Source: Pyrinomonadaceae bacterium MAG19_C2-C3
GTDB taxonomy: Bacteria > Acidobacteriota > Blastocatellia > Pyrinomonadales > Pyrinomonadaceae
Reading direction: 5' to 3'
Length of the DNA stretch: 57,450 nt
NCBI GenBank assembly: GCA_024330265.1
Contig: JANDLT010000032.1
Location: 1-57,450 of the forward strand
In this document: positions 32,081 to 35,994 of the stretch, piece after piece
Numbering within the stretch: the stretch's first letter is position 1
Layout: every line of letters begins with the position of its first letter
Made by a program: the position numbers and the translations under genes
Notes under the pieces: model-generated
Told to the model about the DNA's origin: nothing
The model's input: only the letters and a program-made list of their open reading frames with translations
The model's database searches: none

Positions 32081-32452
32081 ATGCTGTTGCCAAATGGTAA
32101 AAACGCCTTTGTTGACATTCGCAAACTGCGCGATTATTGCTTAAATCCAGACAATCCACGCGGCAGTAACAAGGCACGAGTTTTCGCCGCCGCGCTTGGA
32201 ATAACATCCAACGAAGCCGAGTTCCTACGAGAATACTTGCTTAACTCAGCGCGCACGACCGAAGTGACTTTGGGTGAACTTGATGCTTACGGGCAACGCT
32301 ACAAGATGGATTTTGAGGTGATAACGGAAGTCGGGAGTGCGCCTGTCCGAAGCGGCTGGATTATATTGCGTGGCGAAAACAATCCACGCTTGACTACTTG
32401 CTACGTTTTGAAGAGGAAACGCAATGCTGAAGAAAGAAATGAAACTGCTTGA
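32081..32452 (+). CDS. DUF6883-like small protein
   Basis: A 123-residue protein with the pattern LPNGKNAFVDIRKLRDYCLNP near the start, KARVFAAALGI and YGQRYKMDF in the middle. This fits the DUF6883 domain, found either as a short stand-alone protein or as the tail of large polymorphic-toxin-like proteins. It overlaps by 29 bases with a DUF4926 gene, a pair that recurs in cyanobacteria and other phyla. Enzymatic activity is not established. More AT-rich than the housekeeping genes around it, consistent with acquisition. Confidence 0.7.
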   Translation: MLLPNGKNAFVDIRKLRDYCLNPDNPRGSNKARVFAAALGITSNEAEFLREYLLNSARTTEVTLGELDAYGQRYKMDFEVITEVGSAPVRSGWIILRGENNPRLTTCYVLKRKRNAEERNETA

Positions 32453-32654
32453 CACGGTGGCACTGTTAGAGGATTTGCCGCAACGTAATCTGAATCGAGG
32501 CGAAGTGGGTACTATTGTGGAACTGCTTGCACCCGATGTGTATGAGGTTGAGTTTTGCGATGACGAAGGGCGGACCTACGCCGAATTAGCTTTACGGAGC
32601 GAACAACTGATAGTGCTGCACAATCAAGGCGAAATGCTAAAGATTGCGGCTTAA
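32424..32654 (+). CDS. DUF4926 family small protein
   Basis: A 76-residue acidic protein: LLDTVALLEDLPQRNL, GEVGTIVELL and YEVEFCDDEGRTYAEL match DUF4926, a small beta-barrel-like fold. It probably starts at the ATG at 32424, or five codons later at MKLLDTV. The overlap with the upstream DUF6883 gene implies coupled translation. A toxin-immunity or toxin-antitoxin role for such pairs is a hypothesis only. Confidence 0.72.
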   Translation: MLKKEMKLLDTVALLEDLPQRNLNRGEVGTIVELLAPDVYEVEFCDDEGRTYAELALRSEQLIVLHNQGEMLKIAA

Positions 32655-32832
32655 AGCTTCCAGCGCGGTGAAATCAAAATAAAAGTTATGCCCGATTCAT
32701 CGTTTGTAATAGCAAAGACAAAACGCCTGTGCGCTGAAAGTATTTACGTCAATCATCTTTCGCCCGCGCGTGCGACAATCGTATTTTTAAGTTCGGACTT
32801 TTTAAGTTTCACACTCAACAAGGAGTCTCCAA

Positions 32833-33552
32833 ATGCCCATGCCGACCTCGCTCCGCAACGGTTCATATCGCCGTTGGTTGAGCGAAGATTTAAGCACCCT
32901 TATCGAATCGAAGGAACTCGGTTTTTCCACCGTCAATAAAACCTATTTGCGTTCGCGCTGGCTCGTGCAAATCCTGCAACTCGAACAGGACGCGACACGC
33001 GCCCGCAAACTCCATCAAGCCTTGCGCCTCACGACCGTCATCGGCAGCCTTCTGCTTTTGATGTTCGTGACGTTGCGCTTCAACGACACGCTTCTCGGCG
33101 GTTGGGCAGGCTTGGTGTACTACCTGACGGTGATGATGAGTCTCGCGGTCGCGGCAAGCATCGCCGTCGAACACATCTTCAACTACGGCGAACGCGCACG
33201 CCTTCTCGCCATTCAACTCGACAAACTGAAAACTGAAGGTTGGTGCTTTCTACAACTCTCCGGGCGTTATAACCGTTTCGGGACGCACGAAGAAGCTTTC
33301 GCCTCGTTCGCCAATCAGGTCGAATCCTTGAGCCGCCGCGACGCAGGCGAAGTATATGTCCCGGAAATCGTCCGCGACCGTCGCGTAGAAAGCGAGGCAA
33401 GCGCGAATGTGCCGGAAAAAAAGCCCCACTCCTTCTCACCGACGGCAACCCCGGAACGCTCATCGGTGATACGCACTTCCCCGACTACGACCACTACCGA
33501 CAGAGCGCAGACGATGACGCATCATCACGTCGAACCGGAGAGCATTCAATAA
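32833..33552 (+). CDS. DUF4231 (SLATT-like) two-helix membrane protein, zero-frame product
   Basis: A 239-residue reading. AAGGAGTC precedes the ATG. Residues about 15-165 match DUF4231/SLATT proteins: an amphipathic N-terminal helix with YLRSRWLVQILQLEQDA, two membrane helices (TVIGSLLLLMFVTL and YYLTVMMSLAVAASIAVEHI) and a C-terminal helix with LLAIQLDKLKTEGW. SLATT proteins are proposed pore-forming effectors in nucleotide-signalled defence. After the slippery heptamer at 33417-33423 the zero frame turns into a Ser/Thr/Pro-rich tail of about 42 residues that looks non-native, while the -1 frame stays protein-like for 179 residues. Confidence 0.82.
   Translation: MPMPTSLRNGSYRRWLSEDLSTLIESKELGFSTVNKTYLRSRWLVQILQLEQDATRARKLHQALRLTTVIGSLLLLMFVTLRFNDTLLGGWAGLVYYLTVMMSLAVAASIAVEHIFNYGERARLLAIQLDKLKTEGWCFLQLSGRYNRFGTHEEAFASFANQVESLSRRDAGEVYVPEIVRDRRVESEASANVPEKKPHSFSPTATPERSSVIRTSPTTTTTDRAQTMTHHHVEPESIQ
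33417..33423 (+). promoter_or_regulatory. A-AAA-AAG slippery heptamer, candidate -1 frameshift site
   Basis: In the zero frame the codons read GAA AAA AAG, so the last A of GAA plus the next two codons give the canonical A-AAA-AAG bacterial slip site used by dnaX. A 6-bp stem (CACCGA at 33437-33442 with TCGGTG at about 33463-33468) lies 13 bases downstream, and a GAGG word lies about 20 bases upstream. A real or assembly one-base deletion in the 7-A run would look the same. Confidence 0.5.
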
Positions 33553-33962
33553 CAATCGTCGCTCCCGCGATTGCTGACTACGCTACATCATCCGCCGCCC
33601 CGCATGTTCCAAACTACGCGGATGATGTCGGTGATGATGTGGTGCTTGACGATGTGACCGACGAAGCGGCGGACATCACCGTCGCGCCCATCGTAACGTG
33701 GGAAGCCTTGACGGAACGCGAACCGCGCCTTGCACAGATGTACACCGAAATCTCGCACGTCACCGACGACAAAACTTCCGCGACCTTCTGCGCCAACCGT
33801 CTGTGGTACATCCAATTCGAGCCGCGCTTGCTCAACCTCGTCGGCACACGCGCCGAAATGCCCGACAAACTCGTGCGCGCCCCCGAAGCCTACACCCTCG
33901 CGCGCCGCACGCTTTACCGCTTGCTTCCCGATTGCCGGAGTTGCGTGTGTGTGCCTTGGTAA
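33423..33962 (+). CDS. -1 frame continuation of the DUF4231 gene
   Basis: This frame has no start of its own near its beginning, but it is open from the slip site to the TAA at 33960-33962 (179 residues). It has normal composition: an acidic, Asp-rich linker (PDYDHYRQSADDD, YADDVGDDVVLDD), then a globular-looking end with NRLWYIQFEPRLLNLVG, APEAYTLARRTLYRLLP and CRSCVC. Joined to the first 197 residues it would give about 376 residues. A GTG at 33639 could start a 107-residue separate protein. Interpretation: programmed frameshift, mutation, or homopolymer error. I favour one original gene. Confidence 0.62.
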   Translation, partial: APLLLTDGNPGTLIGDTHFPDYDHYRQSADDDASSRRTGEHSITIVAPAIADYATSSAAPHVPNYADDVGDDVVLDDVTDEAADITVAPIVTWEALTEREPRLAQMYTEISHVTDDKTSATFCANRLWYIQFEPRLLNLVGTRAEMPDKLVRAPEAYTLARRTLYRLLPDCRSCVCVPW

Positions 33963-33994: not shown

Positions 33995-34186
33995 GAAGCC
34001 TGTGCAAATTAGACTGGAGCGCAAGCGTCCCCGCTTGCCATGCCGTTGCAAGACGGCAACCGCCTTTCGCGCTCTCGCGCTCATGGCAAGCGGGGACGCT
34101 TGCGCTCCAGTCGGTTGCTCCAGTCGGTTGGGCATTTTTATCAGCTAAATGTTGAAATAAAATGGTTTTAATTTGCACAGGCTTCA
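33995..34186. mobile_element. MITE-like inverted-repeat element with target duplication
   Basis: Terminal inverted repeats of 17 bp (TGAAGCCTGTGCAAATT at 33995-34011 and its complement at 34170-34186) are flanked by the direct repeat GTTAAA (33989-33994 and 34187-34192). Inside, an approximately 30-bp perfect inverted repeat (about 34014-34042 and 34082-34111, CTGGAGCGCAAGCGTCCCCG...) encloses CCGTTGCAAGACGG. No coding capacity. The right-hand duplication contains the stop codon of the DUF262 gene. Confidence 0.88.
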
Positions 34187-34187
34187 G

Positions 34188-35882
34188 TTAAATATGCCAA
34201 ATCGCTTTTGCGTATCTGGCGAGTTTGTCCTGCCTCGATTTAACTTGCGTCGGAGTCCAATCAGGGTAATCAATCGAGTTGGTCATTGCGTACTGACTGG
34301 TTTTATAGATTGACAGTTTTTCGCTGTACATCTTTCTTTCACAATCGCGGTTTTTGTTTGCTTCGAGTAGTGTGAGATTGCCAATGCGATAAATGAAGTT
34401 CGGTTGCTGGTCATCGCTAAAATTTTCCGCCCACTCGCCCGTTGGATTTTCCGGCAGAATGTGTTCGACGGTTGCCGATTCTTCTTCATAATCTCGCCCC
34501 GCGCCGCTCGCCGCAATCTGATTTTCAAGCGCAAACAAAACATACCGGACAAGTTTTTTGGAACGATTGGTGTTGATGCTTTTGGCGGCAAAAGCATTGC
34601 CGAACGCTGCATCATCCGGGTAAATATCCTTGAGTTCATGCGCGACTTGCGCGGCGTTGCTCAACGTACCGTCGAAAACCTTGCGTGCGGCACGGTTATA
34701 AACTCCTTCTTGTTCGTTGGGATTTAACCCGGAAATGACGTTGTACCGAAACGAGATTACAGAGCAGAGGCGCAAAACCTTTTCAAACTCCGCCGTCTCA
34801 AACCTTTCATATACGTTGAGCAAAAGCGGGTAACATTGCGTGACTCTGAATAGTTTGATTTCACGAATCAGCTTTCTGATTTCACGCGAACCGCTCCACA
34901 GTTCATCGTTCGGGTCGTCAAGCGCGACATACACGGCAGCCATTCTTTCGAGCGCGTCCAGCAACGCGAAAGACTCGTTCGCGGTTTTGATAGAGCCGCG
35001 AACGGCTTTGAACAGATTGCCCTTTCGCACAAGTTCGTTGCGCGAGTTCCAGTAGTAACGTAGGAATTTGGGAAACTCATCGAGGTCTGTGATTTGAATA
35101 ATCTTGTTCCATTGAACTTGAGCTTGTCGCTGGTCAACCGGCGATTGCGCCGACAACGCGAGTAGATAATTTTTAAGCAAATCGGTGACGGTTAAATCAA
35201 TTCCGCGCGCATTGAGCGTCTCAAAAACAGTGTATGCCTTGAGTTCGTCTTCAACGACGATTTGAATAAAGACCAATCTTTCAGCCGTCCAATCGGTGAC
35301 AAATGAAGCGATTCGCTCACCGCTCGCCTGTGTGCTGAAATGGTTTTTGATTTTGCCGTAAAAATAGTTGAAAGCGTTCCACAACAGTTTTTCGGTTGCC
35401 GTGAGTCGCGTCGGATTAATCGGTGGGCGAAGTTGCAGTAAGTAGTTTTGATAAAACCCGTCGTTGTTTTCGTTCAAGAAAAGTTTGCTTGAATAACGCA
35501 AACTCGCCGCGTCTTTTGAGCCGACATATCTTTCGCGTAGAAGCCTGATGCGTTGCGTGTTGGCTTCGGCTTCGATGTCCGAATCAATCAAGTCTTGAAT
35601 GTTTTTTATCGCTGCCAGAATGATGATGCTTAAAGTTGCGATGCGCTGCTGACCGTCAATGATGCTGAATGATTTGTCGCGTTGTTGTTGGAGAACAATC
35701 GCCCCCATGTAGTGCGGGCGGTCTTCACTTTCAATGCTCACGATGTCCGTCCACAGGTCGTCCCAATGTTCTTCCTTCCACGAATAATCGCGCTGGTACT
35801 GCGGCACACGGTAAATCCTGCCGTTGGTGAAAAGGTCGTTGATACTTACCGTATCCGTATCAAGCAGATTGTGTTTAGCCAT
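34188..35882 (-). CDS. DUF262/DUF1524 (GmrSD-like) nuclease
   Basis: A 564-residue protein. I place the start at the ATG at 35882 (MAKHNLLDTD), with AAGGAGCGG upstream, rather than nine codons earlier. The N-terminal DUF262 domain shows VPQYQRDYSWKEEHWDDLW and the nucleotide-dependent motif IIDGQQRIATL. The middle is helical. The C-terminal DUF1524 domain has the HNH-type TVEHILPENP with RIGNLTLLEANKN. Fused GmrSD proteins are type IV restriction enzymes cutting modified DNA, and others of this group act in phage defence. No methylase is nearby. Its stop lies in the target duplication of a MITE-like element. Confidence 0.9.
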   Translation of the reverse strand: MAKHNLLDTDTVSINDLFTNGRIYRVPQYQRDYSWKEEHWDDLWTDIVSIESEDRPHYMGAIVLQQQRDKSFSIIDGQQRIATLSIIILAAIKNIQDLIDSDIEAEANTQRIRLLRERYVGSKDAASLRYSSKLFLNENNDGFYQNYLLQLRPPINPTRLTATEKLLWNAFNYFYGKIKNHFSTQASGERIASFVTDWTAERLVFIQIVVEDELKAYTVFETLNARGIDLTVTDLLKNYLLALSAQSPVDQRQAQVQWNKIIQITDLDEFPKFLRYYWNSRNELVRKGNLFKAVRGSIKTANESFALLDALERMAAVYVALDDPNDELWSGSREIRKLIREIKLFRVTQCYPLLLNVYERFETAEFEKVLRLCSVISFRYNVISGLNPNEQEGVYNRAARKVFDGTLSNAAQVAHELKDIYPDDAAFGNAFAAKSINTNRSKKLVRYVLFALENQIAASGAGRDYEEESATVEHILPENPTGEWAENFSDDQQPNFIYRIGNLTLLEANKNRDCERKMYSEKLSIYKTSQYAMTNSIDYPDWTPTQVKSRQDKLARYAKAIWHI

Positions 35883-35994
35883 CGAAATCACCGCTCCTTG
35901 AACAAACAAAAACGCGAAACTTGATTTCGATTATAAACCGAAGTCTCAAGTTCCGCGCCTGTTGCAAGTCAGTTCGTTTTCGCTCAAAAAACCT

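Follow-up and report, generated by a model that had tools for sequence, protein, structure and literature searches.

Introduction

The dnaX gene of E. coli carries an A-AAA-AAG slippery heptamer and yields two products that share their N-terminal part, its shift leading to the shorter product with the help of a Shine-Dalgarno-like (SD-like) stimulator (PMC3711429). Along with dnaX, the demonstrated bacterial -1 cases in a survey of programmed -1 frameshift (PRF-1) clusters are insertion sequences and phages, and 56 of its 69 clusters are other gene families, which stand as candidates apart from dnaX (PMC4066793). According to the same survey, the downstream structure, usually 5-8 nt past the heptamer, cannot be found in every prokaryotic case, a good many of the hairpins predicted in this way may be there by chance, and an upstream SD-like stimulator is present in some prokaryotic cases (PMC4066793). 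SLATT proteins are predicted to be nucleotide-responsive pore-forming effectors (PMC7159879), and deletion of the SLATT gene of DRT10 abolished defence (PMC12632851).

Here, we describe a SLATT/DUF4231 gene that very likely uses a conserved -1 programmed ribosomal frameshift, found in a 57,450-nucleotide stretch (the window, meaning the whole stretch analysed) of a 4.8-Mb draft genome in 144 contigs from a family of the Acidobacteria. Like dnaX, the gene has the A-AAA-AAG heptamer and two predicted products with a common N-terminal part; unlike dnaX, its predicted shift leads to the longer product and adds a whole domain, and by eye no conserved upstream SD-like stimulator was found in the 40 nt upstream of the slip site in the four genes compared. 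With the PRF-1 clusters it shares a conserved X-XXZ-ZZN heptamer, a gene family that is not mobile and, as is often the case there, a predicted hairpin, but the shift product is the shorter one in 57 of the 69 clusters, whereas the SLATT product would be 137 residues longer and end in a conserved domain (PMC4066793). SLATT/DUF4231 may itself be among these clusters, whose lists stand in the supplements of the survey.

The SLATT gene and its two reading frames

The features of the locus are as follows (window coordinates, strand, feature, basis):

32820..32825, +, Shine-Dalgarno-like AAGGAG, 7 nt before the ATG (sequence)
32833..33552, +, zero-frame ORF, short product of 239 aa, a SLATT/DUF4231 protein with two transmembrane (TM) helices (ORF, PF14015 and NF033634)
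32944..33342, +, SLATT_1 domain (NF033634 profile)
33016..33084, +, predicted TM helix 1, aa 62-84 (Kyte-Doolittle windows; AlphaFold model helices)
33106..33180, +, predicted TM helix 2, aa 92-116 (Kyte-Doolittle windows; AlphaFold model helices)
33417..33423, +, A-AAA-AAG slippery heptamer in the zero-frame phase GAA AAA AAG (sequence; same heptamer in phase in L002, L003 and L004)
33417..33962, +, -1 frame extension of the predicted 376-aa long product (reading-frame analysis)
33424..33552, +, dual-coded stretch, zero-frame tail and -1 frame linker (selection counts; AlphaFold model)
33436..33469, +, possible stimulatory hairpin UCACCGA...UCGGUGA, 12 nt past the slip site (folding: -11.8 kcal/mol, z -1.3, weak)
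33681..33962, +, C-terminal domain with conserved FCAN...CRxCxC, -1 frame (homologues in 3 of 3 relatives; dN/dS; model core pLDDT >90)

The zero frame runs from an ATG at 32833 to a stop that ends at 33552, and its 239-aa protein scores 38.3 bits against the PF14015 (DUF4231) profile (cut-off 24.7) and 59.8 bits against NCBIfam SLATT_1 (NF033634; cut-off 41). The AlphaFold model of this protein has long helices, with block pLDDT of 70-91 across residues 61 to 120, and an unstructured low-confidence tail from about residue 170, for a mean pLDDT of only 59.7. The initial annotation, made from the sequence alone, had read a two-helix SLATT-like protein here, and this reading is upheld by both family cut-offs and by the two TM helices predicted from hydropathy and from the model. 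In these features the protein is like other SLATT_1/DUF4231 proteins; it is unlike them in ending in a low-confidence tail that holds a frameshift site. The short product is likely embedded in the membrane, and its tail after the slip site, to judge by the low model confidence, is likely disordered.

As the initial annotation had also noted, A-AAA-AAG at 33417-33423 lies in phase within the SLATT gene. The Ser/Thr/Pro tail that it described in the zero frame up to 33552 is borne out as 42 codons 3' of the heptamer, rich in His as well as in Ser, Thr and Pro. The -1 frame entered at the heptamer stays open for 181 codons, 179 of them after Lys-Lys, to a stop at 33960-33962, the 179-residue frame that the initial annotation had described. 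The predicted products are thus of 239 and 376 residues.

Relatives and selection

Three relatives were compared with the window at the DNA level (L002, L003 and L004, from genomes G019, G051 and G040, all of a single further genus in the family). This genus supplies three of the four genes, and the DNA-level evidence thus amounts to about two lineages. With the SLATT part alone as query, 4 of 97 near genomes match, namely the genome of the window and these three (47-48% identity, E 4e-56 to 3e-53). The -1 part alone matches five of the 97, the same four and, weakly, G002; the G002 match was judged to be chance. Directly downstream of the SLATT gene, each of the three relatives has the C-terminal domain (about 93 residues, 55-57% identical), kept in the -1 frame relative to SLATT in 3 of 3, and each carries A-AAA-AAG at the corresponding place, again in phase, so that the homologue comparison and the check for a conserved slip site proposed in the initial annotation both came out in favour of a switch. 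In profile searches, the SLATT subfamily and the C-terminal domain occur in the same four of 119 genomes of the family, and the domain occurs in 4 of 162 genomes of the class; even draws across the phylum (396 genomes) gave the genome of the window only.

Protein databases list the SLATT part and the domain as separate ORFs. Only three of nine further SLATT proteins could be paired with domain ORFs (P0003 with P0019, P0004 with P0025 and P0009 with P0082), in each case through longest contigs of identical length, which suggests that the members of each pair lie on the same contig. By eye, Lys-Lys recurs in each of the 13 SLATT proteins aligned, despite the diverged linker around it. In L003 and L004 the residue before Lys-Lys is Val, encoded by GTA, a codon that makes up 7-9% of Val codons in those genomes.

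The stretch in which a -1 shift would be productive, bounded by the nearest preceding -1 frame stop and the zero-frame stop, is 93 codons long in the window, 105 in L002, 45 in L003 and 46 in L004, and within it A-AAA-AAG is the sole in-phase X-XXY-YYZ heptamer in all four genes; a TTTGGGC heptamer in L002 and L004 lies outside it. As background, A-AAA-AAG is in phase in 10 of 366 ORFs (at least 150 aa; window and retrieved stretches of four genomes), and four of these ten are the frameshift genes themselves. The family has 37 places with SLATT_1, 20 of them with loci; three of these 20 belong to the frameshift subfamily, all with the heptamer. Among the other SLATT_1 ORFs, compared at 17 of the 33 other places, two carry the heptamer (L056 and L062), at unrelated places and neither near the 3' end. 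An in-phase heptamer at the equivalent site in four of four subfamily genes compared as DNA is more than chance.

Selection was assessed with Nei-Gojobori counts. Past the zero-frame stop, the -1 frame has dN/dS of 0.13-0.36 in six pairs, and the SLATT part has 0.10-0.30, the pairs that include the window having dS of 1.2-1.8, near saturation. For the dual-coded linker, which offers few sites, dN/dS over both frames is 0.36-0.96 in ten comparisons, zero in one and without a ratio in one. The zero frame and the -1 frame are both under purifying selection.

Alternative explanations

The slip site is a homopolymer in a draft assembly, as would suit an assembly error, a recent indel or a pseudogene, but the same frame relation recurs in four of four genes from separate assemblies and two genera, both frames are under purifying selection, and no relative was found to encode SLATT and the domain in one uninterrupted frame, the arrangement that the initial annotation had tied to an indel. 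The conserved heptamer, the -1 relation, purifying selection and the absence of an in-frame fusion among the relatives found together argue against an indel, which is hardly credible here, and for a programmed frameshift. Between the two readings that the initial annotation had left side by side, the comparative evidence therefore speaks for one gene with two products, while a lost base is at odds with the shared frame relation. Slippage of the RNA polymerase on the A run, giving mRNAs of mixed length that encode the same long product, would find an A7 run in L002 and in the window, where the heptamer sits in it (33416-33422). L003 and L004 have a run of just A6, and the tandem-slippage format A-AAA-AAG is conserved in all four genes. 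Transcriptional realignment is described for run lengths of n > 7 (PMC3711429); runs of 7, 7, 6 and 6 fall below this and so make transcriptional slippage very unlikely.

The domain could also be the product of a second, overlapping gene, translated by internal initiation or by reinitiation coupled to SLATT termination, with no frameshift. A domain profile search, which scored the 7986 candidates sharing most words and admitted short proteins only, matched at least 110 proteins that are separate small ORFs of 50-174 aa, as this explanation would have it. Two of the domain proteins, P0011 and P0014, are called from VSYLAP and MSYLAP, where the start codon could overlap the zero-frame stop, and reinitiation is therefore possible in those two; in the window, a -1 frame GTG at 33639 precedes the domain, and GTGs there and beyond could in principle start the domain alone. 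Against it, L002-L004 have no -1 frame ATG, GTG or TTG between the slip site and the conserved LAPVxTWE, the first one coming after that motif, and the -1 codon that spans the zero-frame stop is GTA in these three genes and ATA in the window. Separate initiation would, moreover, give no reason for the conserved heptamer in phase or for a Lys-Lys kept within a linker that has diverged, and we regard it as unlikely. We therefore favour, as very likely from the comparison of sequences, a conserved -1 programmed ribosomal frameshift by which one mRNA would give the 239-aa protein and, part of the time, the predicted 376-aa protein. That the shift is ribosomal rather than transcriptional, its efficiency, and the accumulation of both proteins are what we infer.

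Stimulatory elements

Hairpins begin 6 nt after the heptamer in L003 and L004 (GC-rich), 8 nt after it in L002 and 12 nt after it in the window, where the hairpin is weaker than in the relatives. Dinucleotide-shuffle z-scores for the window and the relatives are only -1.0 to -1.8. With each gene as its own reference, the best 40-nt window near the slip site is in the top 0.2-7%; 70-nt windows rank at 5-12% in the relatives and at 77% in the window. The hairpin of the window is ordinary for its own gene, the fraction of segments as stable being 0.32 at 50 nt and 0.77 at 70 nt. Hairpin support for the frameshift is weak. GAGG occurs 6-17 nt upstream of the slip site in L003 only.

The added C-terminal domain

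The model of the C-terminal domain is confident, with a mean pLDDT of 88, and has four helices and, next to the FC and CRNC segments, one bridge residue each at positions 50 and 100. All 92 aligned domain sequences have Cys51, Asn53, Gly69, Leu96, Pro97 and Cys99, and Cys102 and Cys104 recur in at least 90% of them. The four conserved cysteines, with the modelled bridge residues beside FC and CRNC, make a four-cysteine metal site plausible.

Pfam searches with a set of 37 domain sequences gave one member matching GIY-YIG (3.5e-5), the remaining matches being of single members at E 0.015 or worse. Among PHROGs, two endonuclease families match one member each, and there are otherwise single or double weak matches, the best at 0.0031; NCBIfam gave no match for the domain of the window, P0014 or P0101. 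In P0104, a GIY-YIG nuclease domain is fused to the same C-terminal domain, a fusion that points to the C-terminal domain as a mobile module. On a Verrucomicrobia contig (L013), a relative of the domain is an ORF of about 100 residues.

Foldseek structure searches with the domain returned no convincing relative. The best match to a solved structure by sequence is T4 Vs.4 (7uq2), the Acb2 cyclic-nucleotide sponge. The two share a 47-residue colinear, ungapped stretch with KP...G...D..Y...L.NC..C, but the match reaches E 0.16-0.24 by profile, which is not significant, and T4 Vs.4 is absent among the Foldseek matches; the likeness to T4 Vs.4 is a lead, not membership.

Four IMG/VR viral contigs encode relatives of the domain, as small separate ORFs in L048, L049 and L050 and, in L047, inside an open frame of 230 residues with an extra N-terminal part in frame. 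By eye, the domain gene of L048 lies two genes upstream of a large terminase-looking ORF, and that of L047 lies upstream of a ParB-like ORF.

Proposed mechanism

Under the programmed frameshift favoured above, ribosomes would step back one base at A-AAA-AAG part of the time. The short and long isoforms would share the SLATT membrane part and could assemble together into a membrane channel or signalling complex, in which the isoform ratio would be set by the frameshift, much as the dnaX shift does for two subunits of a single assembly. The minority subunits, with their cysteine-rich and likely cytoplasmic domain, might then act as sensing or gating subunits. This model of subunit ratios in a mixed oligomer is pure inference. 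A more specific version, in which the frameshift fixes the share of sensor-bearing SLATT pore subunits, and the virus-shared domain is an integrated decoy or ligand sensor so that the pore opens on a viral protein or ligand, is doubtful.

If the frameshift is real, a membrane protein of a predicted pore-forming superfamily gains by it an uncharacterised domain that is conserved in its own right. Annotations would then list such a gene as two and overlook the functional long form, and the site would offer a handle on SLATT gating, with an isoform ratio tunable by one synonymous change.

Genomic neighbourhood

In the window, the SLATT gene is preceded by genes for DUF6883 and DUF4926 and followed by a GmrSD gene. 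The first two are overlapping small ORFs at 32081-32654 (+), DUF6883 (PF21814) followed by DUF4926 (PF16277), directly before the SLATT gene, and may form a pair of toxin-antitoxin or immunity type. The GmrSD-type (type IV restriction) protein is encoded at 34188-35909 (-), convergent with the SLATT gene. Elsewhere, an AlbA_2/Schlafen gene lies about 2.8 kb away at locus L011.

By ORF listing, the three relatives have neighbours in common among themselves, and no neighbour common to the window and the genus of the relatives was found; among window ORFs of at least 120 aa at positions 20-50 kb, the SLATT gene and a single distant ORF are the only ones that match the retrieved stretches. Neither a reverse transcriptase nor any other shared partner was seen next to the SLATT gene, so that the frameshift gene may work alone. 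In PADLOC searches, which bear on the defence role that the initial annotation had suspected, two SLATT proteins, the domain of the window, P0014 and P0101 had no match, and weak matches (E 0.012 and 0.027) came up for P0104 only. Between the SLATT and GmrSD genes, at 34020-34104, lies an inverted repeat with two perfect 23-nt arms (CGCAAGCGTCCCCGCTTGCCATG), of which one further exact copy is present in the genome, on contig C123.
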